Shown: positions 2,224 through 35,664 of the stretch, one piece after another | Numbering within the stretch: position 1 is the stretch's first letter | Layout of the letters: the number at the start of each line of letters is the position of its first letter | Origin: Zygnema cylindricum | Lineage: Eukaryota > Streptophyta > Zygnematophyceae > Zygnematales > Zygnemataceae | NCBI GenBank assembly: GCA_037447655.1 | Contig: JBBHKE010002310.1 | Coordinates: 149,146-213,145, forward strand | Length of the DNA: 64,000 bases | Direction: 5' to 3' | Notes under the pieces: generated by a model | Told to the model about the DNA's origin: nothing | Seen by the model: only the letters and a program-made list of their open reading frames with translations | Database searches by the model: none | Program-made: the position numbers and the translations under genes

Positions 2224-3279
2224 TGTAGAAATTAATGGTTATTAGTTAAGTATTTTCTAGGTCTAAAATAAAAGGCAGAAAAGAAGCCTAGGCAGTTTGC
2301 TTCTAACTCCTCTCTTCATCTCCCACACTTGTCGCAATCACTGAAAGTTGAAGAGGAAGCTAGAGTCATGGTTGTCTATGCTGCTTATAGAGATAGAGAG
2401 ACAGGTGGTAGATTTTGGTAGATTTACCAAAATATACCTGACGGACCCAGGATTTGATCCTGGTACTTACCGTTTGTCAATTCTGAGTAGCCGGTAGCTT
2501 TATCCTATAATCTAGGATCGATGCTAACACATATAGGGTTTGACAAATATATATACTGTTACGCGTGAACAAATTCATTTAAGTGTAACTATAGATGTCG
2601 CATATGGATACAGTTTTGTAAAAGTAAGGAGTAGAGTACGGATACGTAATGGATATCGTGCATTTTGTTTCGACAGCGAAACAAATACTCGCGCAACAAT
2701 TTATGACAGTTGCGATTAAAAACCAATTTGATCAGACGGTCAAAATGGACGTCGAGATCGCGGAATATGATTTTGGCGGTTTTCGGTCAACGCCACATCC
2801 ATCGACACGTGGCACAACAACATTGGATTACGGCATCTCCAAAGATTTCAAGAACGAATCCAGATATGACATGTGTCAGCTAGTTTGCCATGTCGTACAA
2901 TGACCGTACAGAAAGTACACCGACACCTGTACCTATTTTTACGATACAATATTTTGATTGGTGTCGTACTTCAGTAGATAATGTTTTAGAGAGAGATAGG
3001 ACTTCGAAAAATTTAGACGATAGGACCCTCTCTCCAAGAGAGCCTTTGTACAAAAGGTCAACATTGACCCTCCATAACTTATTTCTCAGAGGAGCAAATA
3101 TAGAGATTTTTTTTGCTATCGACTCAGGGGAGTCTTCCCTTCACTGGGGTGAATGTGGTCAAAGTTTTTGTCTGCCAGGGTGGTAGTTATTCTTGTAGAA
3201 ACACAAAAGGGTTAGGGTTATCTTAGAGGCTTCTTGCAGGCTGTCCTTTCTGAGGACCTATGGTGATCTCAGAGTTACA
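2224..3279 (+). mobile_element. Solo LTR of copia family A with perfect 5-bp TSD
   Basis: This LTR begins TGTAGAAATTAATG and ends CTCAGAGTTACA, matching the termini of the A-family LTRs (TGTAGAAACT ... AGTTTCA). It is about 1056 bp, close to the 1050-bp LTRs of A2. It sits inside the A1 reverse transcriptase and is flanked on both sides by CGGAT (2219-2223 and 3280-3284). The undisturbed A2 copy has that sequence only once at the same codon. No internal coding DNA remains, so this is a full insertion later reduced to one LTR by recombination. It contains a short T-arm-like palindrome (GGATTTGATCC) near 2452. Confidence 0.9.
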
Positions 3280-3928
3280 CGGATCAGCTCAGATCACTCA
3301 ATCTATGTTTTTGAAGATGAAAAATGTGTTATTTTTATTGCAATTTATGTTGATGATTTGTTTATCTTAAGTACATCAATTGACAAAGTTAATAAACTGA
3401 AAACGGATCTTTAGGGGAGATTTGAGATGATGGATATGGGGGAGGCAAGATTTATTTTGAGAGTTTAAGAAGAAAGAGACCAAGAAAGAAAAATTATAAG
3501 ACTAACTCAAAAAGAAGCAATAACGAACATGTTGGAAAATTTCCAGATGGATAAGATTAATAGTTATACAACTCTAATAGAGTTGAAGAAAGGAAGTGAG
3601 GGGAGTGTGAAAGAACGAGTCATAACCTTAGACGAGGAATTAGGTCCTGAAGAATAGAATTTCATGCAGACTATTCTTTAGAGGCAAAAAGTGGGAAGCC
3701 TAATCTATTTTATGAATTGTACCCGGCCGGATTTAGTTGTAGCTTTAGGAGTGCTGAGTAGAAGTTTAAATGCTCTCACTAAGAGAGATTGGGAGGCAGC
3801 TAAAAGAGTCCTTAGATATTTGATAGGAACTAGGATGGTTGCATTTGGGTGGGGGGAATATTCACATCACTACTTGGAGTGATGCCAGTTATGGTGATGC
3901 TCCGATGAAGAGATGTAGTTCTGGATAT
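3280..3928 (+). pseudogene. A1 reverse transcriptase end and start of RNase H
   Basis: This continues A1 after the solo LTR. The reverse transcriptase catalytic Tyr-Val-Asp-Asp is readable near 3345-3362 (IYVDDLF). The connection domain includes GSLIYFMNCTRPDL (3700-3745). RNase H starts with a frameshifted TWSDASYGDAP-like stretch near 3870-3910. The reading breaks off at 3928, in the codons for Ser-Gly-Tyr, where the large nested block begins. It resumes at 22544. Confidence 0.85.
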
Positions 3929-4507
3929 TGTCAAGCTCGTGTGCGTTGCCAGAACACTTATATATAACCAAGGACTTCCGAACCCTTTTGAACCAATAAG
4001 GTCCTCAAAGAACGGAGGAGTGAGTGCACCACGCCAGACAAAATCCTTTAATTTGCCAAACTGAGCCGAACGCACTTTATTTCGTGCCTAACGGAGGTCG
4101 AACGACGGAGTTATCTTACTTTAAAGATTTCCATTCTGTTACACGCAACCAGTTTCCACCTTTCCCTTTGGGAAGTACTTTGTGGACACCACGTAACTTT
4201 TGGGATAGATCTGTAGATTTTGCTGTTGGGTGTCAGTAGGATGTTAGTTCAGGTCCACTAGACTGGCAAAACATTTACTACTTTGGGTCAAAGTTAGACC
4301 TTTCACGTCAATTCACGACTTTGTGGCTCAAAAGCGCATAATAGGAGGACATTTGGCTTCAAATCCAGCCGGAGCTAGTCGCCTCACTTTTTGCCCTAAT
4401 TGTAGCAAAACCTGTTTTGTCTTATGTCTGTACGATAACAATTTTTGGTCGTTGATTGGCTTTTGGTATTGCTTTGACTTTGGCACTTCTAGTAGGAAAA
4501 ACTTTGC
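3929..4507. other. Left arm of nested block, unclassified
   Basis: This arm starts with TGTCAAGCTCG at the A1 breakpoint. Short open stretches occur (for example 4024-4239), but none resembles a known protein. The last roughly 30 bases before 4508 resemble the DNA just before the right gypsy repeat (around 15200). It may be LTR or leader sequence of the gypsy element, or a fragment of another element. Confidence 0.35.
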
Positions 4508-5113
4508 TGGTAAAAGGCACTTGGGGCCAAATGAGACAAGTTGCTTTTTCAGTATTGTCTCTTGAGAAAACCCCCAGAGAATACAATGAATCTTTTTGTT
4601 GGAGAACTATTGCATTCTGTCGTTGACTCTATTGCCATCTTTGTTTTGGATTGTCTTTTGTGGAAATCGTAGCTCGGGTGGGTGGTTGGCACTATCCTCT
4701 CTTTGGGCAGTTTGGACTTTCGCTATTTGAAACTTAGAAGAGTCTGGTCGGATCCGTGCAGCGGAACTGAGGGTTGAGAGAGAATCATATCAATCTTCAG
4801 GGCAATTTGGAGAGGTTTCTTCTACTCAGTTTTGTCTTCGTTGCACTCCAGGGAAAGTGAACTTACTTCACCATTTATATTGATTTCTATCTTTATATCT
4901 ATTTTCTGGGGCAAGGTGATATTGTATAAATTGAAAGAGCCGATATTTATTGTTTTTATAATTTCTGCGTGGGAGTTATTTGCGCTCTTTTGTGGTCGTC
5001 TTTGGTTTTTATCCGGAGTTCTTATGGACTGGATTGGACGACCAACATTCCCTTTCCATCCTTTAGATAGCATTCAAGGGTTTAGCATTTAGTGGGCTTT
5101 CGGCAAATCAACA
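4508..5113 (+). repeat. Left terminal repeat of gypsy element
   Basis: This 606-bp segment matches 15227-15829 along its whole length with small differences. Both contain AAAGGCACTTGGGGCC or AAGGCACTTGGGGCC near the start and end in ATCAACA or ATCAGCA. It lies before gag and its partner after integrase, as expected for LTRs. Boundaries are uncertain. Weak similarity extends a little upstream of both copies, no purine tract precedes the right copy, and no clear primer site follows the left one. Confidence 0.65.
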
Positions 5114-5201
5114 CAGTACTGAAAAAGCCACCTGTCTCTTTAGGTTAAAGAGGATAGGTGCTTAAGGCGGAGTACTTCCATAAAGGCATTTAGCTCTTCT
5201 G

Positions 5202-6487: not shown

Positions 6488-8220
6488 GTTGCTAGATCTA
6501 GGGTAACGGAGAAGGTGGAGAGACCGACATTATCCCCTAAATCACGTAGGAAGGGCTTGGCACATAAGGAATCGGGCCCCGGTCACCCTCCCGAAGTATG
6601 ACGATTTACGAGATCTAAAGTTTCGATAATGGAGAGGTGCATGGATCCCGAAATTTCGGCAGATCCTAACTAGCCAAGTCATAAAGAAATCTAAGCCCTT
6701 CACAATCTCCATGAGTTGAAAGTTAAGGAGTTGGTCCAGCGGGTAGCAAGGTCAAGACGAGCCAAGATCGCACGCCCAGTGGGAAGTGAAGTGGAAATAT
6801 TGAGCTATTCATCACAAAGAGGATCTTCACCCTCAGTCATGGAGCAACAGGGGAGGCCATCGACTTCATACAAGCAACCCATCTGATCTCAAGACACTGC
6901 AATTAGCAAACCATCGAGGGGTAGGGCGACCTCTCGGGCCCTGTTCAGGGAAGGAACGAGCAAGTGGGGGTTACCACAGCCCAAGAGAGTGCACCGGTTT
7001 GACCACCGTGACAGTAAAGGCAGGTTCCTATCGATGCTTAAAGAAGAAACGTTACCTCCTACTGGGCCAACCGCACCATAAAAACCTCCTCCAGTTGCCT
7101 TAATCGTTCGACCTTCGGAGGATTGTGGAGGATTATGGATACAGATCCAGAAGTTTAAGGCATGGGGATTGCAAATCTGACTAAGGTGGTTAGCAGGACT
7201 CACGAGGTTATGGAAATAGTGAAGGCACAAGGTCAGGCGACGGCGGGGGGTGGACCAGTTACGGTGGATTGGGAGGCTTGAGAAAGGGAAAGACGAGCTT
7301 TATAGGAACAAGAGTTGAACCTTATATGGGAAGCGAGGCGTATGTCCAACGGACTTCTCAATAAGCAGATACTCACTTCTTCTAGGACAAGACCATACCT
7401 CGGAGCACCAGTTCATGAACCTGCATCTATCTTGGAAACGCTATTAGGGATGCCTCTTTCGGAGACTGACTATGATACCCCTCTTCACCGAAAAGGGGGT
7501 GGAACCACAGGACCTAATGGGAAGGGTTTGGGTGCAAATATACTTCTTCACATTGTAGCTTATCCTCAAGGAGTGTCAACTGTTATTGCGGTGGAAGACG
7601 CCTTCGCAGTAGAAGCCCTTGTGGAATTACGACCGGACAAAAGGGTTCACATTCCCTTTAGAGCATCCCCTCCTCCCGCTTCTCGAACTAGACAATCTCC
7701 ACAATCCCCTGCTCTTACCTCTTCTCCTTGACCACCCTTTTCTCCTGCTGCGGTAGTCTGTGGGTCACCAGATCAGCCTATTTTGCCCTACAAATACAAC
7801 GTCCCTGCCTATTATCGTCCTCACCGGCATTCTCCTTCTACCAGCTCAGCAACTCCACCTCCCGAGACAACCAAGAGGCGAAACAGGAGACAGACTCCTT
7901 ATCTTACCGAGCCCAAACAGTCTACGTCTCCGTCTCCGCCCCCGTCTATTCCACGAAGGCCTTTGAACAGACTTCGTCTCCACATACCATCAGTGGAGAC
8001 ATTTCTAAGAGGGGAACAATACATTCATAGATCTAGAGGAGCTTCCACACCTCCTTTGAGAGCAAAACGATCCTCGGTGGGGGGGGGGTTCCCAGCTGTT
8101 ACACCCAGAGGAGAAAGAGGTTCGGATATAGAAGGGGTAGATCCCGGAACAATTTCATTGGCATAGTTTATCAGCCCCACCAGGCGAGCCTCTCCATAGT
8201 TCACCCACCTTGCCGAGGAG
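6488..8220 (+). pseudogene. Gypsy gag, Pro/Arg/Ser-rich linker region
   Basis: Several overlapping open stretches lie here (7315-7731, 7783-8166). They encode low-complexity Pro-, Ser- and Arg-rich sequence, such as PPPSIPRRPLNRLRL and an RGASTPPLRAKR-like tail. Frames change repeatedly, so this is a decayed linker between the Gag N-terminus and capsid rather than a functional gene. An RGEQYIHRSRG-like basic patch is visible. No catalytic domain is recognisable. I assign it to gag purely from its position between 5202 and the capsid and zinc-knuckle block. Confidence 0.45.
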
Positions 8221-9645
8221 GAAAACAAAATGAGGATATAAGGATCTTTACGGGAGATAGCTCAGGGATCGCTTTTTCTGATTTTGAACTGCTGTGGAAA
8301 TCCTTCACGCAGTCTGAAATTAACAAATACAGTGATGGGGCTATCCCAGAAGATTTTGAGACCACTATTTTTCCTATGATGGTAAACTTTCTAGCCGGAG
8401 GAGCTTTGGCCGACTATAAGGAGCGTCAACCCTCTCCGATGGCTCCTAACATCAAAATCTCAAATCCGACACTTGACGCCTAAGTCTTTGACGTAGTTGC
8501 CAACCCGACACTTGACGCCTAAGTCTTTGACGTAGTTGCCGATCTGGCTCCCGCCGCAGTAGTCTTTGTTAATGCCACTTTCACTATGGACATGAAACTG
8601 CGGGCCCAAGGAAGAGCCTATGTTAACCATCTGCAGGCAGTACAAGCCGTTGAGGGAGCTAGCCGAATGATGGCCAGCCCAACCCCTTGCACCACTTTGC
8701 TGAACGCTTGGAGACTCCTTTGTACGGAAAGGAACGAAACTGCAATCAAAAAATTCACGGAATTCGAATGTTTGAAAAATGAAACCACGTAGACGCTGTT
8801 CAACCGCCTCTCGAGCCTTTGTCAGAAGACCAAGCTATCTACCATTAACACCCCAGCCATGGCCACGAAATATTATGTCAATGTTCGGAATTCGTTCGGA
8901 CCAACAAGAGAGGCAGCTCTCGACAATTAGAGTGCTAGTCAGGCAATCCACGACAAAAACCCCACGGCGCAAGAAATTCCATTGGCTGCAATGAAGTTAT
9001 ATGATCATTATGTAAACTGGGAGGCCAAAGTAAAGGCTGTTACCGAGAAAGCGCGAGCCAACTTCGCAGGCTTCACGGGGGAATCCTCTCTTAACACAGA
9101 AGAACAAATCGAGCTGCAAGCTTTGCGGAAGCTTAAAGGGAAACAGGAAGCTGAACCAGATCCGAACTTGCAATGGGTGCGGATGAAAAAGTTTACCTGT
9201 ACAACTGCTTGAACTGCAACCAAACCGGTCACAGGTGGAAACGATACCCCAGGAAGCTCAACGCGGAACTCGCTATCAAGCAAAAAGAGTTTGAGAAAGA
9301 ACGTGCAGAAAGAACCCGGAAGCAGCAGGAACGCAGGCAGGAAGGAGGGGGAGGGGACCAAACACCGGTAACAAAAGAAACTTATAAACCTACTCCCAGG
9401 ACTAAAACCACTAAAATGTCTCAATCCTAGTTAATACAAATCAGACTTCCTAAACTTGATGATGCTCAGATCTCGAAAGAGTTAAGAGGGAAGTACACCA
9501 CAGAGGGGTCAAAATGTGAGGCTTGTGGGTTTATGGGCCATAAGGAAGGGCAATGTTTTCAAAAGAGTGGGGTCCCAAAGGAAGTGATGCAATATGCTTT
9601 GTTCATAGGTGAGGGGGAACCAGTTGTTAATCCTTTGCCATTGTA
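8221..9645 (+). pseudogene. Gypsy gag capsid and two CCHC zinc knuckles
   Basis: From about 8231 one frame reads EDIRIFTGDSSGIAFSDFEL, then continues through NATFTMDMKLRAQGRAYVN and a region rich in helix formers to about 9210. A few stops and an in-frame 13-codon duplication interrupt it. Length and composition fit a gypsy capsid domain. Two nucleocapsid-type knuckles follow. CLNCNQTGHRWKRY (about 9206-9250) lacks its last Cys (Tyr instead). CEACGFMGHKEGQC (about 9511-9552) is an intact CX2CX4HX4C. Such knuckles bind the element's RNA during packaging. The first knuckle is followed by a charged Glu/Arg/Lys run. Confidence 0.75.
8466..8543 (+). repeat. 39-bp tandem duplication in gypsy gag
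   Basis: Two adjacent 39-bp units (8466-8504 and 8505-8543) differ only at their last bases. The unit is a multiple of three, so the duplication is in frame. Each unit contains an in-frame TAA, so the stop was duplicated with it and arose before the duplication. Confidence 0.9.
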
Positions 9646-10679
9646 ACTTTTGTATTTATGAGGGGTCAATCTCCAAATGAACCGGGACCAAGTAACATGA
9701 TGCCATAACACATCATTCAGCAGCATAACAGTCAACTGGCCACCATGGCAGGAGAATTGGCCGCTCTCCGCTTGGGATTGAAGGCCCACACACCTCCACC
9801 TCTAATGCACGCTGAGAAAGTGCATAGACAGAAGCAAGAAATGTTACATAAGCTAGCGGAGATGGAACATCAAACCATGGTCGGTGGAGAGGATGATGAC
9901 CTCATGGGTTGGGATATGGAGCCTCCAAAGGCTCATCGTGCTCGGACATTTTTGTCCGGAGCCTAGAAAGTCAGAGTCGCGGGCAATCGCAAGCAACTTC
10001 GCTCTACCATGTCTTTATAGAGAAAGGACAAACAACCGATGGAACCAAAGGACCACAGCGGCAAGGCCACTAGTCCTTTATCCTTCACACTGCAAGCTAT
10101 CCTGCTGAGTAGTGACATTGGGCTGGGCCTAAAACCGACCCATCCGCCTCCTCTGGCTCTAAAGAAAATTCCTCTCGGTTTCGAGGGTTAGAAAAAAACA
10201 CAGCCAGAAAAGGGTGCTTCAACCACTGAAACAGATAAAGAATGGTTCGACTAATACATAGTTGGAAGACCAACAGCAGATCCACCAATAACACCTCCAA
10301 TAGGGAACAATGACGCAGAAGATGAAGAAGCAACGAAGTGGAACAAGAGAAATCAGAAGACGAGGAATCACCTATTTCATCGCCCAAAGCTCACCCTCCT
10401 TCTTCCAAACTGGCAATTATGTTAGTACGACATCTGATGCCCTACGCCTTGACCCACGTCAAAACGCTAGCTTCCTCCCACAATTTGCCCGAAGATATCC
10501 TCATTTAGGCACTAGAAGAAGAGATTCACACCAAGAGGGAAAGTGTCGGGTTGGCAAAACCACCCAAGACAGAATTTATGTCGCAAGAACCGAAAATGTC
10601 TATGGCGGATTGAGATTATAAGGCCTTGTCGGTGGCTCTTGTTCTTAACAAGACATGTAATTTTTAACTTAATGGATAC
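9646..10679 (+). other. Gypsy spacer between gag and protease
   Basis: Only short open stretches occur. 9745-9966 encodes an Ala/Leu-rich then acidic segment (MAGELAALRLGLKA, then EDDDLMGWDM), possibly a Gag-Pol linker. 10310-10621 is open but unremarkable. No domain is recognised. It most likely represents the decayed C-terminus of gag and the N-terminal extension of protease. Confidence 0.4.
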
Positions 10680-11029
10680 AGGTATTTAGATGTAGTGGTG
10701 GATACCGGAGCCCTCCCTAAACTTATAACCACTTTAGCATTACAAAAAATGCGAGATGAAATCAGGCCAGAAATCAGTCCCAGCGAAATATGCCTGAGTA
10801 CGGTCAGCAGTGAGAGCCAACCAGTATTTGGCATCATTAAGCAATGGAAATCGAATTCGCGGATGACGCACGTTAACACGTACAAATTCAGCTCCTCTTT
10901 ATCGTAGTGGAAGGTAAACAATTTGAAATTATTTTGGGTATGGCTACATGGACAAGGTTGAACATGAAGTTGAGCATCTAGAAGGAACAAGTTACACTTT
11001 CAGACCCGGAAGATCCCGAGGGCACCAAA
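10680..11029 (+). pseudogene. Gypsy aspartic protease
   Basis: The retropepsin active site Asp-Thr-Gly-Ala is in VVVDTGALPKLI (about 10690-10725). The second half of the fold is recognisable by VVEGKQFEIILGMATW (about 10905-10954), which has the Ile-Ile-Leu-Gly motif typical of retroviral-type proteases. A frameshift separates the two halves. The second half is in the same reading frame as the methyltransferase that follows, with one TAG in between near 10980. The enzyme would release the Pol products, including the methyltransferase. Confidence 0.75.
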
Positions 11030-12420
11030 GTGGTGGTTTCTTTGGATTTATGGAACCGAGGGAAAACAACCGTTCCTGTGGCTGGATGCTTTCCGGTGTA
11101 CTCTGCATCAACCCCCTTCAGAGTTATTCAAAGATTCCACCGATATCGCGAATTCCATCTAGCACTTCTCTATTTCCAAGCGGTGGGAAAGGGAGTATCA
11201 AAGCAGATTAATACTGATGGCCACCCTTCGGCGGGGAGTGGACAGGAGCTTTGCCGCCATATCATCCGGACAGCAAGGTTCATCCGGCCCAAACTCCCAA
11301 CGATTCTTTACCTACACAAGGATTTCAACCGACAAGTGGTGTCACTTAAGATCCCGCCCTCAGGATTCCGGATTCTCTCGTTTTTTTCCAGCATTAGTTC
11401 CGACCTAGAAACCGTCCTAATAGCTAAATACCAAGTAGAAAAGTACTCGGCATTCGAGATTGACCCGGACGCCCGGGCAATAAGTGAGTATCGACTACAA
11501 CAACTGCACCAAATTTACCCACAACAACTCCCGGTGTCCTCCATATCTAACTCTCACCGTACGCTTCCCTAGAATGTAGACAACATCACGGATTCACATT
11601 TGGAAAAGCTTGGAAGGGTAGACTTGGTGATCGCTGGATGGCCTTGCCAGCGGTATTCCTTAGCACGACAGGGCAGGGGACACCAAGATGTCCATAGCAC
11701 AACATTTTTTCAAATGACTCGACTGATAACAGGGTTACATGAACGCCAAGACAGACCAGTGGGGTACGTTTTGGAAAACGTTCACCCCACAGAAGATAAA
11801 AGGAAACAAGTTGTCAACAGCTGGAACCAAGTGATCAAGGTTTTGGGGACTCCAATAGTGTTTGATGCAGCTCAGGTCGGATCAAGAGCCCATCAAGTTT
11901 GGGCTTATTGGACCAACTTGGCTCCACTTCCCGTCCTCCAACAACTGTTGAAAACAAAGATTCTAGATCCCAATATCACAGTTCAACAGATTCTCAAACC
12001 CGGGCGAATGGCCACCCTTGTGACCAGAGCCGACCGAACACCGTTTTTCGGTTGGAATAAACCCAAGAATCCACGAAGGGCCCTACCGACCCTGGTATCT
12101 TTCCCTAACAACCATGCTTACTGGAAAGGCGCACAAAGAATGATCTTTGACAGTAAAATCGCTAATTAGACGGCACCAAATATTGAGGAACGGGAACAAG
12201 CAATGGGATTTTGACCGGCAACCATAGCAGCACCAGGGGTCTCGGCCACAAAGAGGTGCAGTTTAATCGGGCAAAGAATGGATTTGAATGCAATTTCATG
12301 AGTGCTACAACATTCTGTGGCATTCTCCAGCCTCTAGTCTTCGAAGTCACGGGCAACATACCTTCAATCTCCACAGTTGTTGGCCATGCAAACAACGCTA
12401 CAGCTTGAGGGGGGTAGAGA
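11030..12420 (+). pseudogene. Cytosine-5 DNA methyltransferase domain within gypsy pol
   Basis: One frame carries the ordered C5-DNMT motifs. A degenerate SAM-binding motif I is at about 11372 (RILSFFSSISSDLE). The acidic strand follows (EKYSAFEIDPDARAISEYR). Catalytic motif IV, with the Pro-Cys-Gln nucleophile, is at about 11620-11670 (DLVIAGWPCQRYSLARQ). Motif VI is YVLENV (about 11767). A motif VIII-like AAQVGSRAHQVWAYW lies at 11870-11913. A C-terminal EEREQAMGF ... RMDLNAI tail (12190-12300) follows. The domain is about 320 residues with almost no target-recognition insert, like compact DNMT3/Dcm-type enzymes. In-frame stops: TAG 11570, TAG 12167, TGA at about 12212 and 12299. Both motif I glycines appear replaced by Ser, so this copy is probably inactive. 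Homologous enzymes add methyl groups to cytosine C5 using SAM. Confidence 0.88.
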
Positions 12421-12744
12421 GGTAAAAGGGAAAAAATCAGCAAATTACATTCAAAGAGAACATTGAACCCAGGAGTTTCCTCAGTGGGGGGGAGCGGAGG
12501 CTCAGAATAGGGCAGCATAGGGGAATTTGTCAGCAGTAGCGTTTTAGCAGCTGAGCAATGGACAGATCCATAGGTAGAACTGGAATTCGACATCTCCATT
12601 TGAGGTCGGCCACCGAAAGCCTTGGCTGTAGTGGAACCCGCGAAGATGGACTGGACTTTAGGGGAACAGCTAGACCCACAGTAGAAGGCCCAGCTCTCCA
12701 AGCTATAAGAGGAGAACGGGGAGGTGTTCTCCTAGTCTGACACA
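12421..12744 (+). other. Linker between methyltransferase and reverse transcriptase
   Basis: The frames are short and broken on both strands. No domain is recognised. By position it links the methyltransferase C-terminus to the reverse transcriptase N-terminus in the gypsy Pol. Confidence 0.35.
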
Positions 12745-14050
12745 AATGAAGGGATCTATGAAGGGACCCCTTTTCGCATTGACCTGACTGACGAGACGGC
12801 GACTATTTGGCAGAAACAGCACCCTCTCAGCTTCAAAGAAGGAGTTCATCACCGCAAAGGTGCACACTTTAGTGGACGCGGGCTGGTGCAGTAAAGTACA
12901 GGGCTACATCAGTTTGCCTCTCCAATAGTGCTCGCGCGAAAGAAATACTCGACCAGGAAAACGGTAGATTTCCGTATGTGTGGGGAGTATCAGATGCTCA
13001 ACGCGGCAACTCTCTCCGACTGTAATCCTATGCCCACCCCGGAAGAGATTTTTGACTCTCTTGCTGGGGCCAACATTTACTCTATGTTGGATATGAAGAA
13101 TGGGTTCCACTAGATTGCAATGGAGCCGTAGCACCGCGAGAGGAACGTTTTTGGGTCGGATCTAGGTTGTATGAATGACTGTACATGCCATTTGGCCTCA
13201 AAAATGAACCTACCAAATTCCAACGGGCCATAGATGAGGCCCTCTGGGGAATCGATTAGGCATACTGTTACATCGACGATGTGGTTATTTTCTCCAAGAC
13301 ATTCGAGGAACACTTAGAGCATATACAGATCATCCTACGAGCTCTCCAAGCAACGGGCTTGAAGTCTCACCCTGAGAAGAGCATTTTTAGGGTGCACAAA
13401 ATAATTTATCTTGGTCATGAGGTGATTCCTAGGACAGTGGGTCTCCACATGGTTAAGGTGGCAGCCCTTGACGCCCTTCCACCCCCGCATGGCATTTTTT
13501 CTCTTCGCACTTTCCTGGGCCTAACCAACTATTACCGGAGGTTTATTCTCGAATTCACTAGCCACGCCCAGCCATTGAATTAATTATTGCGAAAAGACCA
13601 AGAGTGGCAGTGGGCGGAAGAACAACAGACTGCTTTCCAATTTCTGAAAGATTCCCTGAAGCAGCATCCGGTGCTCCGGATGCCCAATCACCAGCGGCCC
13701 TTCCCCCTTTATACTGATTGGAGCAGATTCATATTGGGAGCAGTTTTGGCTTAGTTGGACGATGTAAGGGCTGAGTACGTAGTGGCCTACGCAAGCCGAA
13801 GTAATAATAGTGCAGAGGGGAATTACAGCAGTAACCATAGGGAAATACTTACGGCGGAATGGGCCATTTAGCATTTCATGCCTTACCTCTATGGAGTACA
13901 CTTCACCCTTATTACGGATCCCCATCCCCTCAAATGGATAATGGAGAACAATAAGTTTACTGATCTTGTAAGAATATGACTTCAGCATTATCCACCGAGC
14001 CGGGGAAATCCATGGGAATGCAGACGGATTCAGCAAGAATCCAAACCCTT
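12745..14050 (+). pseudogene. Gypsy reverse transcriptase and RNase H
   Basis: The entry region reads FRIDLTDETATIWQKQHPL. After frameshifts it continues PIVLARKKYSTRKTVDFR, then SMLDMKNGFH*IAMEP (about 13084-13128; the Gln codon is now TAG) and the catalytic CYIDDVVIFSK (about 13265-13300). KIIYLGHEV and FLGLTNYYRRFI (about 13510-13550) form the thumb. The RNase H reads PLYTDWSRFILGAVLA (Asp of the TDxS motif), VVAYASRSNN and LITDPHPLKWI (to about 13940). These are hallmark gypsy motifs. Stops at expected Gln/Glu positions and frameshifts near 12840 and 12910 disable it. Confidence 0.9.
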
Positions 14051-15226
14051 TCACCAAAGACTCTACAGAGGCGCAGCACGATGAAGACCTCGAGCTCAGC
14101 TTGGGACTTATAAGAGCTTCCTCTGCCTTTATTAGGCTGCCTCGAGTTGAAGGGGAACTGTCAACTTCTGCTGTAGACTTGGAGGGGGAGGCTCCTATTA
14201 GAACCGGCTGCAAGGATATTTGAAATGACCCCGATTCCCTCGGGCCTATCCAAAAAGGTTCCCCTCTTCCCCACCTGGCACGAATTCACTTTTCTCGGTT
14301 TCATACCTGGATGGCGGCGTATGAATAGGACCGAGGCATTCTTTGGCACGATGGTAGGAGGAAAGTGGTTCCTCCTCTGTTAAACCCTCATTGTTCATCT
14401 TCAACAGCAATGTGGGCACTTCAGACAAAAACGGACCACCTCATTGGTCACTGGGTCGTATTGGTGGCATGGGTTGCGCGCCCAGGTCAACCGTGTGGTG
14501 CAGACGTGTCCTTCGTGTGACCAAGTGAAAGCTACTTTTGACAAAAAGGGTGAAACTGAACTTCACTCCATCCACGACCGGGGATGTTTTACAGATGGTC
14601 ATTAGATCTACTGGGACCACTTCCCACCAGCGAATGGGAAAACCGTTTTGTATTGCTAATGATTGAACACTTCTCCAAATGGATCGAACTGGTGGTTCTC
14701 CTTCGAAAAGAATCCATAGCAGTTGCGGATGCATTCTTGTAGAGGGTGCTGTCCCAATTTGGAGCCTCGCATGAAGTTCTGACTGATCTGGGGTCCGAGT
14801 TTGCCGGAGAATTTCATAACCTTCTGGAGAAGTGCCTCATTGACCACCGGTTGACCAGCTGAGACCACCCCTAAGCCGACGGTTTGGCCAAAAGGTGCGT
14901 ATAGACAGTGAAGTGGTCACTGCTGAAATATGCACTAGAAGAGGATTTAGGGGAATGGGACAATCGGGTGCCTTGGATTGCCATGGGATACACATTCAGT
15001 AGGCTGGCCTCCCTCCATTCTTATAGCCCTTACTTCATTCTTTTCGACCAACATCCCATCCTTCTTAGAGCTGTATCGGTTCAGGCGGTTGTACTTCCGG
15101 AGATGGACAACCTGGGGACTGTAGAGAAGCTGATTGCCGACTGGGCCAAGGTATTTCACCGGGAAATGCATTTGGCTATCGGTAATTTACAGGCTGCTTA
15201 GCACTTGCAGTAGGACAAACTTTGGT
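14051..15226 (+). pseudogene. Gypsy integrase
   Basis: Fragments in changing frames follow a gypsy integrase. A Cys-containing finger is readable near 14460-14530 (two closely spaced Cys). The core includes NGKTVLYC and SKWIELVVLLRKESIAVADAF. Around 14778-14810 it reads LTDLGSEFAGEF, with the second catalytic Asp. Then comes a Pro-x-Ala-Asp-Gly-Leu-Ala-Lys-Arg stretch, where the usual catalytic Glu reads Lys. The C-terminal part, 14908-15201, encodes WDNRVPWIAMGYTFSRLASL and YSPYFILFDQHPIL. No chromodomain is evident. Confidence 0.8.
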
Positions 15227-15829
15227 TGTATAAGGCACTTGGGGCCTAAGGAGAAAGGTTGCTTTTCCAGTACTGTCGCCTAAGAAAACCCCCAAAGAAC
15301 ACAATCAATCTTTTTCTTGGAGAGCTGTTGCATTCTGTCGTGGACTCTATTGCCATCATTGTTTTAGATTGTCTTTTGTGGAAATCGTAGCTCGGGTGGG
15401 TGGTTGGCACTATCCTCTCTTTGGGCGGTGTGGACTTTCGCTATTTAAAACTTAGAAGAGTCTAGTCGGATCCGTACAGCGCAACCGAGGGTTGAGGGAG
15501 AATCATATCAGTCTTCGGGGGAATTTGGAGAGGTTTGTTCTTCTCAATTTGTCTTCGTTGCACTCCTGGGTGTGTGAGCTTGCTTCACCATTTTCATTTA
15601 TTTCAATCTTTTTTTTTCTTTTCTGGGGTAAGGTGATATTGTTTAATCTGAAAGAGCCGATATTTATTGATTTTATATTTCTGCATGGGAGTTATTTGCG
15701 CACTGTTGTGGTTGTCCTTGTTTTCTGTCCGGAGTTCTAGTGGGACGGATTGGGCGACCAACATTCCTTTTCTATCCTTTGGATAGCATTGAAGGGTGTA
15801 GCATTTAATGGGCTTCCGGCGGATCAGCA
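15227..15829 (+). repeat. Right terminal repeat of gypsy element
   Basis: About 603 bp, matching 4508-5113. It follows the integrase remnant directly. A G-rich tract (TTTGGGGGGG, about 15832-15841), which would normally precede a 3' LTR, lies after this copy instead. That leaves open that this duplicated segment is untranslated DNA rather than the LTR proper. Confidence 0.65.
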
Positions 15830-15926
15830 CTATTTGGGGGGGTACGGGGTACCTTTATAGTTTTCACTCGCTACATTATTATAACTCATGCATATCCCCG
15901 GGAAAGAAGAGACAGAAAAGGGCATG
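15830..15926. other. Right arm of nested block, first part
   Basis: Ninety-seven bases lie between the gypsy repeat and copia A2, starting with a G-rich run. They continue at 22380 on the other side of A2. The last five bases, GCATG, pair with ACATG after A2 as its target duplication (one mismatch). No gene is seen. Confidence 0.5.
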
Positions 15927-16976
15927 TGAAACTCTGAGACCTCCATAAGTCCTCACAGTAGACAGCTTCCAAGAAGCCTCTAGGATAATCCTGACCCCTT
16001 TGTGTTCCAGCAAAAATAACTGCCACCCTGGCAGACAAAAACCCTGACCACTTCCACCCCTGTAAAGACAAGACTCCCCTGAGTCGGTTGCAAAAAGAAT
16101 CTCTGAATTTGCTCCCCTAAGCATTAAGTTATGGAGGGTCAAAGTTGACCTTTTGTACAGAAGCTCTCTGGGAGAGGGGGTCCTATCTTCTAATTTTTCT
16201 AAGTCCTATCTCTCTCACAGACTCTATCTACTGATGTACGGAACCAATCAGAATTGAGTTCCGTACGCAAAAGTACAGCTGCCGGTGTACTTTATGTACG
16301 GACATTGTACGACATGTCCAAAATGTCGACACATGTCAAATCTGGATTCGGTGCCATAATCTCCGGAGATTCCACAATCCAACGGAATTTCGCCACGCGT
16401 CATTTGATGTGGCGATGGCCACAAACCGCCGAAATCTTCCTCCGCGATCTCGGCGCTAATCCTGGCCGTCCGATTAAATTCGGATTTAATCGTGGCCGTA
16501 ATAAATACATGCGCGGTATTTGTTTCATTTATGAAACAAAATGCGCGGTACTGATTTATGTCTGTACCGTAAGTCGTACATTATGTATTACTGGATCTAT
16601 GTATCCCGTAATTCATTACAGTTAAATGGTTTATCGAACGTATACATGTTTAAATAAATATCAAACTATATACCGCGTAACACTACCTCTAGACTTAACG
16701 GCTAAGGCTACCGCCTATTTCCTGACTGCCGGCCGCTAGGTACAAGGATCAAATCCTGCCGCCGGCACATTCCTTTTTAAATAAGTAAATAAACCCTAAT
16801 ATAAAAATTCCCGTAAACCTCAATATAGCCAAGGTAGCCATGGCTCTAGCTTCCTCTCCGATTTCTCAGTGACTGCGACAAGTTTGAGAGTTGGAGAGAG
16901 AAGTTAGAGATAGACTGCCTCGACTTCTATATTTCTTCTCAGACCTAGAAAATACTAAAAAACATTAGTTTCTACA
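15927..16976 (-). repeat. A2 3' LTR
   Basis: 1050 bp. In element orientation it starts TGTAGAAACTAATG and ends GGTCTCAGAGTTTCA. A 123-codon open stretch lies on the opposite strand (16254-16625) and recurs in the 5' LTR. It matches nothing I know and is best taken as chance. It contains the palindromic AAGGATCAAATCCTG (about 16744) shared by all A-family LTRs here. Confidence 0.93.
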
Positions 16977-16993
16977 CTCCCCTTATTTTCTAG
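16977..16993 (-). promoter_or_regulatory. A2 polypurine tract
   Basis: In element orientation this reads CTAGAAAATAAGGGGAG immediately before the 3' LTR. It is the expected RNase H-resistant primer for plus-strand DNA synthesis. The RNase H stop codon overlaps its upstream side. Confidence 0.8.
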
Positions 16994-18011
16994 TCAATCT
17001 TTAATTTCAGACCACACTTCTCCCTGCAAAAAAATAGCTTAGGGGAAGGCACAGGTTTGGTCATCATATCAGCTACCATTTCACTATCTGGTCTGTACTC
17101 TAAACTGATTATTTTGTTTTCTACTTTCTCTCTAACAAAGCTGAGTCTGATGCCCATGTGTTTGGCTTTAAAATGGTGTTTAGGATTGGCAAAAATAGCG
17201 ATTGCTGTCTGATTATCACAAAATATTTTCTGCACACCACTCTTAAGGTGACCAAGCTCACCAAGCAAAGACTTGACCCACATCAATTCTTTTACAGCAG
17301 AGTAAGAGGCCATATACTCAGCCTCCATGGTGGACTGAGCAATAACCTTTTGCTGTTTGCTACTCCAACAGCAAGCCCCATCACCCACATATAATACATA
17401 TCCAGAAGTACATCTCCTCATCGGAGCATCACCATAACTGGCATCACTCCAAGTAGTGATGTCAGTATTCTCCCCACCCAAATGCAACCATATATCTCTA
17501 GTTCCTACCAAATATCTAAGGACTCTCTTAGCTGCCTCCCAATCCTTCTTAGTGGGAGCATTTAGACTTCTACTCAGCACTCCTACAGCTGCAGCTAAAT
17601 CCGGCCGGGTACAATTCATAAAATAGATTAGACTTCCCACTACTTGCCTGTAAGGAATAGTCTGCATGAACTTCTGTTCATCAGGAGATAATTCCTCGTC
17701 TAAGACTATGACTCCTTCTTCCTCACTCCCCTCACTTCCCTTCTTCAACTCCATTCGAGTAGTAAACTATTAGCTTTATCCATTTGAAATTTTTCAAGCA
17801 TGTTCCCTATTGCTTCCTTTTGAGTCAATCTTATAATTTTCCTTTTTCGGTCTCTCTCTACTTCAATTCCCAAAATATATCTTGCTTCTCTCATATCCAT
17901 CATTTCAAATCTCCCCTTAATATCGGTTTTCAGTTTTTGTTAATTTTTTCCATTGATTTACTTAATACAAGCAAATCATCAACATAAATTGCAATAAATA
18001 TCAAACCTTCC
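16990..18011 (-). pseudogene. A2 reverse transcriptase C-terminus and RNase H
   Basis: The open stretch 17754-16990 encodes about 254 residues. It begins after the reverse transcriptase palm, with the connection segment VGSLIYFMNCTRPDLAAAVG. The complete copia RNase H follows: TWSDASYGDAPMRRC (first catalytic Asp), QSTMEAEYMA (Glu), FCDNQTAIAI (Asp), then a PKHHFKAKHM and REKVE tail. The region 17755-18011 is frameshifted but still shows IAIYVDDLLVLS near 17990-17955, the catalytic Tyr-Val-Asp-Asp. One or two frame repairs would be needed to join it to the upstream pol. Confidence 0.9.
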
Positions 18012-20339
18012 TCATCTTCGAAAACATAGATTGAGTGATTTGAGCTGATCCGAATTTTGCAGACCGGTAAGAAACTCATCAAGCTTCTTATTCCATTGTC
18101 GAGGTGCCTGTTTTAAACCATAAAGAGATTTAATCAGCCGGCATACCTTACTCTCCTCTCCTTCCTCCACAAAACCTTCGGGTTGTCGCATGAAGATCTC
18201 CTCTTCCAATTCTCCATGCAAAAAGGCTGTCTTGATGTCCATCTGATGCACTTCCATGTCTTCCGCCGCTGCTAAACTGAGAAGTATGCGGACGGAGGGA
18301 AATCTGACCACCGGGGCAAAGGTTTCCTCGTAGTCAATTCCTTCCTTTTGTGTAAATCCCTTTGCCACTAATCTGGCCTTGTAGCGTTCGATTGTGTTAT
18401 CTGGGTTCAGTTTTAATTTGAAGACCCACTTACAACCAATTGGTTTTCGGTTAGGTGGGCAGTCCACCAGCTCCCAAGTATCGGCTGCCATGATTGAAGC
18501 CATCTCCTCATTGATGGCTGTCTTCCACCGGTTTCTTTCTGGACAAGTCATCGCCTCTCTATAAGATTGAGGTTCATCTTGATGAGATAGTTTAGTTACC
18601 TTGTTATTAACCTGTTTTTCTTGCAGTCTTTTGCTACTTCTCCTCCCCCCCTCAAAATCTAAGGCCAGAATAGATGGTTCTCGTGGATTCTTTCGAACAA
18701 ACTCGGCTTCTTCCCTATCCCTTGATTCCGAATCAATTTCCACCACGTCTTCCGCTTCGAGTAGAGTTGTCACTGGAGTTTCCACAGCCGAGTCCTTTTC
18801 GGTCTGATTTGTTCCTGCAAGAATGTCATCTTCTCTAAAACCTTGATAGTTAGGAAGCTCAAAGTCATCGGAATTTTCTGACTCAAATCTGATTTTTACT
18901 GACTTCGTATATATGAAGGGATCCACAGACTTTCCTTCATCCATAACTACTAGATGCTTTACTAAGATTATATCTTCCCTTTTTAGATCATAAACTCTAT
19001 ATCCTTTTACATCTTCATCATATCCTAATAAGTATCCCGGTTTTCCTTTAGGATCTAGCTTCCAATTGGACCGATCAGTATCTAGGCTGAACACTTGACT
19101 GCCGAAAACCTTTAAGTGAGATATGTCTGGTTTCCGGCCTGTCCATCTTTCATAAGGTGTTTGATTTCTTATAGCTGAAGTAAGAACTCTATTCTTGAGG
19201 TAATTAGCACAGTTCATTGCTTCTGCCCAAAACCTTTTCCCTATCTTTTTATCTGACAACATACTTCTAGCACTATCACTTAGTGTTCTATTTAACCTTT
19301 CAGCTACCCCATTCTGTTCCGGATTTTCTGGAACTGTCTTTTGGTGTTGAACCCCATCTTCCCTCAGAAAATCCTCAAACTGGTTAGAAGTATACTCTCC
19401 ACCATTGTCACTCCTTACTCTCTTGATTGGAGTTTCATGGAGTTTTTCGCTCCATGCTTTATATTGTCTAAAACAATCCTCAGCTTCGGACTTGTTTTTC
19501 AAAAAATATACCCGGGAATACCGAGACCAATCATCAGTTATAGTCATCATAAATCTCTTCCCCCCCGGTGAGGGCACTTTAGCCGGTCCCCAAATATCTG
19601 TGTGTACTAGATCTAGAATTTTTTCTCCCTTATAGGTGGCTGACTTAGGAAAGGGTAATCTGTGTGCTTTACCTTGAACACATCCACTACAATCACTTAT
19701 ATCATCACTCTCACTGAACTGAATCCCTTCCACCACTCCCATCTTTTTCATCTCTCTTAACTTATCTAGATTCACATGCCCAAGCCTCTTATGCCACATC
19801 ATAATATCATGAACACCAACATAATAATGTTTCTTCTTTTCATTACTTAAGATCAGCCTAAACATCCCATGGCTACCTTTCTCAGCAATGAAATAGACAT
19901 CATCCTCAAAACTAGCAGTAAAAACTCCTTCCCTAATGCTAGTAAAAAAACCCTTATCATCTAATACTGATGTAGAGATAAGATTTTTGTTCAGCTCCGG
20001 AATAAATAATACATCGGAGAATGTTAATATGGATGTCTTTCCTTCTACTAACACTTTTAGATCTACCGATCCTACAAGAGTAGTGGTGACTATCCTCCCA
20101 TCCCCGTACTCTATCTCTACGGTGGGAATCTTTCTTATCTTAGTGAACAGGGGCCTATCCTTACACATGTGCATTGAGGCACCTGAATCTATATTCCAGC
20201 CTGCTTCACCTTTCAATCCACCGTAAGCACATTTCTGCTTTCGTGGAATTTCAACCTCAGTGTTTCGCCTCCAACTCCTCATCCAAAAGGAGCTCATCGT
20301 CCTCGTCCTCGGATTCCGCCTCAAGTACCTTTGTGACAA
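18012..20339 (-). pseudogene. A2 Pol: protease, integrase, reverse transcriptase (775 codons open)
   Basis: This is the longest open frame in the window. Protease: GWNIDSGASMHMC near residue 47, with the Asp-Ser-Gly active site. GAG-pre-integrase: WHKRLGHVNL and CSGCVQGKAHRLPFP. Integrase: LVHTDIWGPAKVPS, RSDNGGEYTSNQFEDF and QNGVAERLNRT, giving an intact Asp-Asp-Glu triad. Reverse transcriptase N-terminal half: NRWKTAINEEM, CKWVFKLKLNPDNTIERYKA, QMDIKTAFLHGELEEEIF and SLYGLKQAPRQWNKKL. Then a frameshift truncates it just before Tyr-Val-Asp-Asp. The upstream gag lies in a different frame and overlaps this one by about 80 bp. That may be a mutation or an expression shift. Confidence 0.93.
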
Positions 20340-21349
20340 GGGCCTTTTTCTTTCCTCTCAGGGTACCACCGGTCTGCCCCTCCTTTAACCGAAGCTCGGT
20401 TAGCTTAGTGCACTCTGCCATATAGTGCCCCGGTTTCTTACAAAAATGACATAAACCTTTGGGAGCATTTGGTTCGAACTCGTCAACCTGTTTTTTCTGC
20501 TCCCTACCCCCATAGTTTCCGACTGGTTTCCGGGAATCCTTGTTCCTCCAATCAGTCGCTGTTGCCAAGGCTTGGCCACTCTTTCCTCCTCTTCGGATCT
20601 CAATCGTATTCTCTCGAACGAGAATAATCCCTATCACTGAGTTCCATATCCACCTTGAGTCAGGCAAGTCCTGCACACGGTAAACTATGTTTACGAACTC
20701 ATCAGGTAACTTCATCAGTAAACAGTTAACCTTTTTCTTTTTCACTGAAATCTTTTCCCGCACTCTGTAGCTCCATGAAGAGTGTAGCAAGCTCATTGCA
20801 AAAATCCAACATATTTCCCCCTTTGTATACATACTCCTTAACTTTCTGATCAGCCAACTGTTGTTGCTGAATCGTACCACTTCGGTACATCTCTATGAGA
20901 GCCATCCAAAGATCGGATGCTCTTTCTACCTGCAAATGAGGACATGCAAGTCCTTGAGTGAGATGGCGTAGGATGAAGTGCTTTGCCGCCATATTGTTGA
21001 AGTCCCAGGTTTCAGTATCATTCTCCTCGTTCCTCGGAAAAGGTGACATGAATGTCGAACCAGTTGCTATTGGTGTGGTCGTCTCCTTCTCCTTTCCTTT
21101 GTCCACCACCTCTCCTTCTTTTGTTTCCTCCGTTGAAGGTGGGTCCTCTTTCCTAATGAATCTGGTTCCTCCAAACCCTGGAGGAATTCCAAGACTTGAT
21201 GGACGCCCCAACCGTCCACTCACTATCCCTCAAAACCTTTTTTCGCATAGAGCTCCTATCATCATACTTTCCCAGTATATGAAGCCAGTTCCATAAAAGA
21301 TTGGTACCCTAGAGGGTGGGCCCATAACCTGAAACTCTGAGACCTCCAT
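20257..21349 (-). pseudogene. A2 Gag with start codon inside the LTR
   Basis: The first ATG in this frame is 21349-21347, inside the 5' LTR. It reads Met-Glu-Val-Ser-Glu-Phe-Gln across the LTR edge, then VMGPPSRVPIFYG through the primer site, then a TGA (Lys-Arg-Phe-stop) near 21234. The same frame continues to about 20726 (LGRPSSLGIPPGFGGTRF, ETWDFNNMAAKHFILRHL), a Gag capsid of the retrotransposon UBN2 type. After a frameshift, 20880-20257 encodes the rest with an intact knuckle CHFCKKPGHYMAEC (about 20460-20417) and an acidic C-terminus. Parallel VMGPSSRIPIF and VMGASSRIPIF starts in the B and C elements support the LTR start. Confidence 0.8.
21316..21329 (-). other. A2 primer-binding site, half-tRNA (initiator Met) type
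   Basis: In element orientation GGTTATGGGCCCAC follows the LTR with no spacer. It is complementary to the anticodon stem-loop of plant initiator tRNA-Met (GTGGGCCCATAACC), not to the tRNA 3' end used by typical plant copia elements (TGGTATCAGAGC). Drosophila copia and yeast Ty5 are the established precedents for priming from this internal part of the tRNA. The site is also read as Gag codons (Gln-)Val-Met-Gly-Pro. Confidence 0.85.
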
Positions 21350-22379
21350 AAGTCCTCAGAGTAGACAGCTTCTAAGAAGCCTCTAGGATAATCCTGACCC
21401 CTTTGTGTTCCAGCAAAAATAACTGCCACCTTGGCAGACAAGAACCCTGACCACCTCCACCCCTATAAAGACAAGACTCCCCTAAGTCGGTTGCAAAAAG
21501 AATCTCTGAATTTGCTCCCCTGAGCAGTAAGTTATGGAGGGTCAAAGTTGACCTTTTGTACAGAAGCTCTCTAGGAGAGGGGGTCCTATCTTCTAATTTT
21601 TCTAAGTCCTATCTCTCTCACAGACTCTATCTACTGATGTACGGAACCAATCAGAATTGAGTTCCGTACGCAAAAGTACAGCTGCCGGTGTACTTTATGT
21701 ACGGACATTGTACGACATGTCCAAAATGTCGACACATGTCAAATCCGGTTTCGGTGCCATAATCTCCGGAGATGCCACAATCCAACGGAATTTCGCCACG
21801 CGTCATCTGATGTGGCGATGGCCACAAACCGCCGAAATCTTCCTCCGCGATCTCGGCGCTAATCCTGGCCGTCCGATTAAATTCGGATTTAATCGTGGCC
21901 GTAATAAATACATGCGCGGTATTTGTTTCATTTATGAAACAAAATGCGCGGTACTGATTTATGTCCGTACCGTAAGTCGTACATTATGTATTACTGGATC
22001 TATGTATCCCGTAATTCATTACAGTTAAATGGTTTATCGAACGTATACATGTTTAAATAAATATCAAACTATATACTGCGTAACACTACCTCTAGACTTA
22101 ACGGCTAAGGCTACCGCCTATTTCCTGACTGCCGGCCGGCAGGTACAAGGATCAAATCCTGCCGCCGGCACATTCCTTTTTAAATAAGTAAATAAACCCT
22201 AATATAAAAATTCCCGTAAACCTCAGTATAGCCAAGGTAGCCATGGCTCTAGCTTCCTCTCCGATTTCTCAGTGACTGCGACAAGTTTGAGAGTTGGAGA
22301 GAGAAGTTAGAGATAGACTACCTCGACTTCTATATTTCTTCTCAGACCTAGAAAATACTAAAAAACATTAGTTTCTACA
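21330..22379 (-). repeat. A2 5' LTR
   Basis: 1050 bp and nearly identical to 15927-16976, with the same TG...CA ends. In element orientation its last 20 bases contain the gag ATG. The promoter position is not obvious. An AT-rich stretch near 22050-22070 (TTTAAATAAATATC) is a possible core. Confidence 0.93.
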
Positions 22380-22543
22380 ACATGGTCAAGCATGTGGAAC
22401 CGCATCAGCATTTGGGGTGGATTGTAGGTCTTTTATGCACACCTTCTCTGACATCTCCCCTAGACCTCCCGGTTTCCAAAACTCCAATGCACTCTATTAC
22501 TAGCGGTGGGCCTTTCTCCTATGTTTCCCAAGCACGCTCGACA
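22380..22543. other. Right arm of nested block, second part
   Basis: 164 bp from the A2 target duplication (ACATG) to the block end (AAGCACGCTCGACA). No coding signal is seen. It ends where A1 RNase H coding resumes with ATAT. Confidence 0.55.
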
Positions 22544-22954
22544 ATATAAATTATATCTGGGTGATGGGGCTTGCTGTTGAGTAGCAAACAACAAAGGTTT
22601 ATTGCCGAGTCCACTATGGAGGCTAAGTATATTGCCTCTTCCTCTGTTGTAAAAGAATTGATGTGGGTAAAGTCTTTGCTTGGTGAGCTTGGTCACCTTA
22701 AGAGTGGTGTGCAGAATTTTATTTGTGATAATGAGGCAGCTATCGCTATTGCTGCCAATCCTAAACATCGTTTTAAAGCCAAACACATGGACATAACACT
22801 AAGCTTTGTTAAAGAGAAGGTTGAAGAGAAAATAATCAGTTTAGAGTACAAACTAGATAGCGAGATGGTAGCAGATATGATGACCAAACCTGTGCCTTCC
22901 CCTGATCTATTTTTCTGCAAGGAGAATAGTGGTCTTAAATTGAAGAGTGACTAG
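22544..22954 (+). pseudogene. A1 RNase H C-terminal part
   Basis: This continues the A1 frame broken at 3928. It reads GDGACC, a TGA in place of Trp, then SSKQQRFIAESTMEAKYIA, LMWVKSLLGELGHLKSG, FICDNEAAIAIAANPKHR and a SEMVADMMTKPVPSPDLF tail. The second and third RNase H acidic residues (Glu of STMEAKY, Asp of CDN) are present. The stop at 22952 is followed by AAAATAAGAGCAG, a decayed purine tract, and then the 3' LTR. Confidence 0.9.
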
Positions 22955-22967
22955 AAAATAAGAGCAG

Positions 22968-35476: not shown

Positions 35477-35664
35477 GACTAGCTGAGATGCTGCACTGCA
35501 ATACTGCTATGCTGCGCTAGTCTAACATCGGGATACAGTGGGACTAGCTGACTAGCTGATTTGTTGCATTGCTATGTTGTCAAGCTGCTCTATTTCAACA
35601 TTGCAGCTATGCTCCTTTGGCATCGCAGCTACTCTGATACACTGAGTCTAAAGCTTGAGAGGAG
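35477..35664 (+). other. C1 3' untranslated spacer and purine tract
   Basis: About 190 bp of imperfect short repeats of GCTATGTTG-like and TGACTAGCTGA words between the RNase H end and the 3' LTR. It ends with AAGCTTGAGAGGAG, the likely polypurine tract. A similar spacer follows RNase H in the C2 element at the window end. Confidence 0.7.

Follow-up and report, generated by a model that had tools for sequence, protein, structure and literature searches.

A high-copy Ty3/gypsy retrotransposon family with a DNMT3-type DNA methyltransferase and a PHD finger in Zygnema cylindricum

Gypsy retrotransposons that carry a cytosine-5 DNA methyltransferase (DNMT) are already known. KnitGypsy-Dnmt3 of Klebsormidium nitens, described in 2018, encodes a Dnmt3 within the Pol of a Gypsy element and has DIRS-like repeats; in the accessible part of that report, the key DNMT residues are called conserved, Ka/Ks is below 0.2, the terms PHD and protease are absent and target duplications of the element are not taken up, and Fig. 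4c may still show a PHD finger or the order protease (PR)-DNMT-reverse transcriptase (RT) (de Mendoza et al. 2018, PMC5890265). A sequence-only reading of the locus studied here had related it to such DNMT capture in charophyte gypsy elements, which is right in kind, and had pointed to de novo CG methylation, which has been shown for the Symbiodinium DIRS enzymes but not for the charophyte gypsy enzyme, which produced no methylation in yeast, a result that the authors call inconclusive (PMC5890265, accessible part). A 2025 survey places some DNMT3 members in streptophyte and dinoflagellate retrotransposons, given as LTR Copia and DIRS (PMC12344493), and the accessible part of PMC9861306 holds nothing further on DNMT-carrying elements. 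For Dnmt3, Klebsormidium and Gypsy together, only PMC5890265 was found in the open-access literature since 2018, and no other gypsy-DNMT report appears among the titles of the matches listed. In the titles and abstract openings of that literature, neither a gypsy integrase with a PHD finger nor a gypsy element combining an integrase with split direct repeats was evident.

The locus lies in a 64,000-nucleotide stretch (the window; G000:C1744:149146-213145) of an assembly of 352.8 Mb in 2689 contigs. Ordered C5-DNMT motifs had been read there between a retropepsin and a gypsy RT, and all of the named motifs are present on the + strand: EKYSAFEIDPDARAI at 11438-11482, GWPCQ at 11636-11650, YVLENV at 11765-11782, QVGSRAH at 11873-11893 and EREQAMGF at 12188-12211. 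The YIDD motif of the RT is equally real (CYIDD, 13266-13280, + strand) but lies outside the span 10680-12420 in which it had been reported. The longest open piece (11573-12166) matches Pfam PF00145 DNA_methylase at 1.1e-9, in agreement with the proposed domain, and 13260-13580 matches RVT_1 at 7.5e-10. The parts of the copy are collected in Table 1.

Table 1. Parts of the DNMT-carrying element in the window and of its insertion site
Feature	Position	Strand	Basis
Target-site duplication ATAT, left copy	3925..3928	.	sequence at both element ends
A1, left terminal repeat, begins TGTC	3929..5114	+	4456-5114 matched by 15172-15830 at 86%
gag region, broken	7474..9577	+	tblastn with L009 family-A gag frame
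Zinc knuckle CLNCNQTGHRWKRYP in gag region	9206-9250	+	tblastn with L009 family-A gag frame
Retropepsin domain, broken; VVVDTGA 10692-10712	10614..11026	+	tblastn with L009 protease
TAG matching the family-A UAG between PR and DNMT; then CAC TTC	11160..11162	+	sequence comparison with other copies
DNMT3-type C5 DNA methyltransferase domain, motif IV GWPCQ, 5 in-frame stops	11324..12346	+	
Reverse transcriptase / RNase H, broken	12895..13961	+	Pfam, tblastn
Integrase, broken	14359..15225	+	tblastn
A2 remnant	15198..15830	+	repeat comparison
B2, first part	15831..15926	+	
Younger Copia nested in B2, not part of the DNMT element	15927..22379	-	
B2, second part, ends GACA	22380..22543	+	
Target-site duplication ATAT, right copy	22544..22547	.	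sequence at element end

The window copy is dead. Its DNMT region aligns to an intact relative at 80% identity with 0 frameshifts and five stop codons, and the PHD-coding end has been lost, as have B1 and the start of A2; the C-terminal PHD finger of other copies was not found at its integrase end. The earlier description of one repeat-bounded element holds as to the single element and fails as to its bounds, the true ends being 3929 (left) and 22543 (right). Ordinary LTRs at ~4481-5113 and 15199-15829 were considered and dropped after the outer ends and target duplications had been found. The element spans more than the repeat pair 4480-5114 / 15198-15830 suggests because a Copia element is nested inside it, with LTRs (15927-16976 and 21330-22379) of 1050 bp that are 98.1% identical; the first few bases of the second part of B2 are its apparent target duplication (4 of 5 bases alike). 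This nested Copia has long open frames at 18012-20357 and 16990-17766. The flanks outside both ATAT copies continue as a single Copia sequence across the insertion site, so that the DNMT element sits in an older Copia and is itself split by a younger one.

Much of the window consists of retroelements. The older, diverged Copia that received the DNMT element occupies ~2220-3928 and 22548-24047, and further Copia-type fragments (Pol_BBD, gag_pre-integrs, rve, RVT_2 and SH3 domains) lie at 29799-37200, 47524-50586 and 59965-62076. Scanning of 20 window frames gave a single domain unrelated to retroelements, a protein kinase (53628-54791, +, one 388-aa open frame, PF07714 2.3e-44). Elsewhere in the genome, 88 chlorophyll-binding matches were seen, with dense arrays on contigs C519 and C2590, many within 35 kb; they mark the host as green. 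An Lhcb-like protein has a multi-domain LHCI-2 (9vfj) as its best PDB match, and moss and seed-plant chains come next, before those of Chlamydomonas; taken with the chlorophyll-binding genes and a chromomethylase-like exon (L007, see below), this suggests a streptophyte host.

Here we show that the element belongs to a high-copy Ty3/gypsy family reading Gag-PR-DNMT3-type DNMT-RT-RNase H-integrase-PHD. A Pfam search of the genome gave at least 123 scored DNA_methylase matches, the best of 782 first-look candidates; they include at least one probable host exon (L007, see below), and in a few cases two matches may belong to a single copy. TAG, TAA and TGA all occur as stops inside these matches. 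Stretches of 10 kb were fetched around 20 of the 123 places, picked mostly for long frames, so that the sample leans towards intact copies. By tblastn positions, the order PR-DNMT-RT is present in 18 of the 20 stretches; the RT was not found by tblastn in the fetched stretches L026 and L027, which have PR and DNMT. A PHD finger follows the integrase in 15 of the 20 (tblastn), and L020, L021 and L024 show a second RT match elsewhere within the stretch. The occurrence of the DNMT within the element is far beyond chance.

Two copies show the domain order in single frames under Pfam. A 1520-aa frame of L009 comprises DNMT, RT, RNase H, H2C2, rve and PHD, with the protease in the preceding frame (Asp_protease_2, 2e-4, just below the cut-off), and a 2395-aa frame of L011 comprises zinc knuckle, DNMT, RT, RNase H, H2C2, rve and PHD. 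The family-A PHD, as seen in L009, scores below the Pfam cut-off; the L011 zinc knuckle is also below it, and a protease-like DTGA stretch without a Pfam score lies between this knuckle and the DNMT. The Ty3/gypsy order PR-RT-RNase H-integrase is present with Ty3-like RT and integrase, and the RT-integrase portion matches the Ty3 polyprotein at 9.9e-98. No recombinase match was obtained in five proteins scanned, where the rve integrase was found, and Pfam scans of the element proteins gave no ADD or PWWP match.

The elements fall into two families. Family A comprises 7 of the 20 stretches (L009, L010, L013, L014, L026, L027 and L028) and the window copy, and family B the other 13. Identity between A and B is 58% in RT, 51% in integrase, 42% in DNMT and 38% in PHD, and the proteases are not alignable. 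The well-supported groups agree between the DNMT (21 rows), RT (19) and integrase (17) trees, in which many forks are unresolved. On the simplest reading, the DNMT and the PHD finger would have been inherited with Pol since before the A/B split. Two old families with agreeing supported DNMT, RT and integrase groups are new as far as the literature searched goes. Within family A, L027 and L028 (C633 and C1042) have DNMTs identical over 291 codons on two contigs, and their protease tails just upstream differ.

In searches of PDB sequences, the DNMTs of both families have DNMT3A as the best match. A DNMT profile of 8 rows matches DNMT3A at 3.6e-18, HhaI at 1.2e-7 and DRM2 at 1.6e-5, and none of its 55 matches is a chain named DNMT1; DNMT3A/3B are the nearest solved relatives of the domain. 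Motif IV of DNMT3A/3B reads P-C, which family A keeps (G-W-P-C-Q in 13 of 13 rows from 9 places), whereas family B has E-C-Q (15 of 15 rows, 14 places); EN (motif VI) and HRVR (motif VIII) are kept in both families, invariant in the 8 aligned rows. The residue before E-C-Q is a stop in L004 and Ser, replacing Trp, in L005/L021 (one place). Genome-wide, the pattern G-W-E-C-Q-G-M has 148 exact sites (counted by pattern; reversed control 0), and G-W-P-C-Q-G-M has none. The change from Pro to Glu requires at least two base changes, and the Glu is spelt GAA in L011, L012, L017 and L020 and GAG in the other 9 of 13 copies, which indicates that Glu itself is kept. Glu in place of the motif-IV Pro, to judge from the literature searched, is a new feature, and it suggests altered or absent methyl transfer in family B.

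The DNMT domain is under purifying selection, family B with its Glu included. Median DNMT Ka/Ks is 0.185 in family A (0.11-0.40, 14 of 21 pairs scorable) and 0.325 in family B (0.06-0.54, 16 of 78 pairs scorable). Most comparisons between B groups have saturated synonymous sites, with Ka 0.12-0.24; the five scorable B pairs with Ks > 0.3 have Ka/Ks 0.06-0.09, two of these pairs being close to saturation (Ks 2.4 and 2.9), and values are higher in close B pairs, which include decaying copies. For RT of the same copies, the medians are 0.22 (A, 10 pairs) and 0.13 (B, 13 of 78).

One of the Pfam matches, L007, has no match to the element DNMTs at 1e-5. At positions 1498-1800, its 83 residues lie in a 100-aa frame and have a PPCQ motif IV, and the nearest among chains named DNMT1 are 9mvy, 7ubu and 4fsx, the last of which we take to be maize chromomethylase; L007 is most likely a chromomethylase-like exon of a host gene. 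In viral contigs, no relatives of the element DNMT were found with a single-protein query, and a profile query gave two loci, whose matches cover 56 and 45 residues around motif IV and are taken as general DNMT likeness.

Each of the eight family-A copies available carries a TAG at one and the same position of the PR/DNMT joint. It is in frame with the DNMT start in L009, L014, L010, L028, L027 and L026 and with the following residues QLPIS in L013; in the window copy it is not in register with the DNMT. CAA TT follows it in 6 of the 8, the exceptions being L010 (TAA TTC) and the window copy (Table 1); UAG CAA UUN resembles the readthrough context of tobacco mosaic virus. L027 and L028 are not independent cases, given their identical DNMT codons; the DNMT of L026 is only 58% identical to that of L009, which makes the conservation of the UAG meaningful. 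Family B has no conserved stop there: in the 110 codons before the DNMT, scattered stops occur in 3 of 13 copies, and L011 and L012 are open through this stretch. A putative readthrough UAG between PR and DNMT has no precedent in the literature searched. A second TAG is shared by L014 (4331) and the window copy (10979) at the same Trp codon of the protease tail, in copies that are ~20% different in DNMT.

Chromoviruses are Ty3/gypsy elements with a C-terminal chromodomain. The present elements likewise have a domain of chromatin-reader type at the integrase C-terminus, but it is predicted to be a PHD finger: in the five proteins scanned, a chromodomain had no match at E 0.01, and PHD was found instead (1.5e-9 in L011). 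Of 11 family-B rows, 10 retain the zinc ligands (L025 has lost two), as do 4 of 4 family-A rows, which have a longer first spacing. Median PHD Ka/Ks in family B is 0.095 (0.06-1.68, 12 of 55 pairs). The best PDB relatives of the L011 PHD are PHF12, BAZ2B, WSTF, LID and PHF21A, several of which read histone H3 unmodified at lysine 4. The ADD domain of DNMT3A/3B reads H3K4me0 (PMC11021467, accessible part), and PHD domains of CR1-like non-LTR elements are cited in the accessible part of PMC5408684. For gypsy elements of this kind, the predicted C-terminal PHD finger of the 15 stretches appears to be new within the literature searched.

Flanks were fetched for nine copies. The arrangement A1-coding-B1-A2-B2 was found in six of them (C1344, C1915, C449, C2602 and C829 of family B, C1042 of family A), and in C1407, B1-A2-B2 is present but no A1 could be recognised; C783 and C2577 showed no split repeats within the span fetched. 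In family B, A is 931 to ~1475 bp long and B is 186-243 bp. The inner joint GACA-GC-TGTC and a G-run just before B1 are present in the 7 copies where visible, and the outer ends read TGTC...GACA, with the exception of TATC at the left of C1042. Exact 4-bp target duplications flank five of the seven copies with both ends in view: C1344 (TTGG), C1915 (CCCT), C2602 (CCCC), C829 (AAGG) and the window element (ATAT). In C449, three of the four bases match, and in C1042 there is no match. A1 and A2 are identical in C1344 (931 of 931 bases) and differ at 6/1474 positions in C1915, 5/1388 in C829, 38/1213 in C2602, 141/1106 in C449, 131/802 in C1042 and 91/657 in the window copy, a range indicating copies from young to old. 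A2 of C1042 ends ~330-380 bp short of the point at which A1 and A2 diverge in the window copy.

The element ends inside an LTR unit (A1 ... B1-A2-B2), not at the outer ends of two whole LTRs, an arrangement equal to (BA)-internal-(BA) LTR cDNA rotated by B. The G-run would mark the start of B as U3, A1 would end where the internal region starts, and A2|B2 would be the end-to-end joint of two LTRs; from this repeat arrangement we infer an LTR-LTR circle opened at an inner site, and the site used by the DDE integrase seems to lie within the LTR. Inspection by eye of the sequence that follows A1 showed no evident tRNA primer site. Also new, within the range of the literature searched, are split repeats of DIRS-like form that correspond to an LTR cDNA in circular permutation and have TGTC...GACA ends and 4-bp duplications.

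No clear mutational trace of CG methylation is seen, as CpG transitions are not clearly raised. Between A1 and A2, with six copies pooled, they affect 62 of 828 CpG sites, compared with 171 of 2123 C/G sites outside CpG, and in the three old A1/A2 pairs they are 1.3 to 1.8 times as frequent as at other C/G sites. CpG observed/expected is 0.89 in L011, 0.69 in L009, 0.64 in window 8001-15200 and 0.75 in window 26001-64000.

Elements of the DIRS order have a tyrosine recombinase and are not known to make target duplications. The split direct repeats are common to DIRS and the present elements, which differ by their rve integrase and the exact 4-bp duplications. SymbioDIRS-Dnmt3 of dinoflagellates, as far as its description was accessible, is alike in the Dnmt3-type DNMT in Pol and the A-coding-B-A-B repeats but has a tyrosine recombinase, where the present elements have a DDE integrase and target duplications. 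KnitGypsy-Dnmt3, compared by its published description, and the present elements are both Gypsy elements with a Dnmt3-type DNMT in Pol, repeats arranged as in DIRS elements, purifying selection and intronless copies, and where key residues are called conserved in KnitGypsy-Dnmt3, family A keeps P-C-Q and family B has E-C-Q. The PHD finger, the split repeats, the UAG and the second family with its altered catalytic motif were absent from the sequence-only reading of the window.

The explanation that we consider somewhat probable is that a Pol-fused DNMT is packaged, that an LTR-LTR circle is opened internally and that integration is steered by the PHD finger. In family A, the DNMT, as the first domain after the UAG, would be made only within the readthrough Pol product, and packaging of this product would bring it together with RT and integrase. 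The cDNA would be made by the ordinary LTR route and joined into an LTR-LTR circle, which the DDE integrase would open at GACA-GC-TGTC inside the LTR rather than at cDNA ends. The family-A DNMT may bind and methylate the double-stranded cDNA or circle, or the chromatin of the landing site; the PHD finger may steer integration to chosen chromatin, and the new copy would thereby carry a mark of self or of silence from the outset. For family B, retention of the fold may serve DNA binding or another role.

Other explanations of the DNMT differ in what they make of the same observations. That a host DNMT gene or retrocopy was caught between unrelated element fragments might be supposed from the window copy, which is broken and nested with other elements; this has virtually no probability and is ruled out by the many collinear copies, with the same order in 18 of the 20 stretches, agreement of the supported tree groups and single open frames of 1520 and 2395 aa running from DNMT through PHD, and the DNMT is, as the sequence-only reading held, part of the element, here in many copies. 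It is also improbable that the DNMT is kept, as a neutral passenger or structural Pol spacer, only because its loss breaks the frame. The lack of the usual motif-IV Pro in family B would fit a passenger, as would the inactivity of the published gypsy DNMT in yeast (PMC5890265, accessible part), but low Ka at mostly saturated synonymous sites between B groups, the low Ka/Ks of the five more distant B pairs and the retention of motif VI and VIII residues in aligned A and B rows are not what would be expected of a mere spacer.

Action of the DNMT on the host genome, in host silencing or landing-site marking, rather than on element cDNA, is rather unlikely. In its favour, the PHD finger of the integrase suggests that host chromatin is contacted, and the host has its own chromomethylase-like exon, so that methylation marks are probably read there; on the other side, fusion of the family-A DNMT to Pol beyond a UAG would likely yield small amounts, within particles. 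We keep to the packaged, Pol-fused enzyme as the preferred reading.

Transposons are silenced by DNA methylation, and it is therefore puzzling that some elements keep a methyltransferase of their own over long periods. Tentatively, and with less confidence than we place in the packaging scheme, the elements may form a lineage with its own writer-reader pair (the DNMT3-type enzyme of Pol and the PHD finger of the integrase), with a large branch whose conserved Glu-Cys enzyme could be a DNA-binding pseudoenzyme or one of altered chemistry, and with a DDE integrase that would open an LTR-LTR circle internally, DIRS-style. As one genome holds families with normal and altered motif IV, along with copies that have identical repeats, the use of the DNMT to the element is directly testable. 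The permuted repeats, with their clean 4-bp duplications, are also relevant to the use of DIRS-like repeats by elements that lack a tyrosine recombinase.
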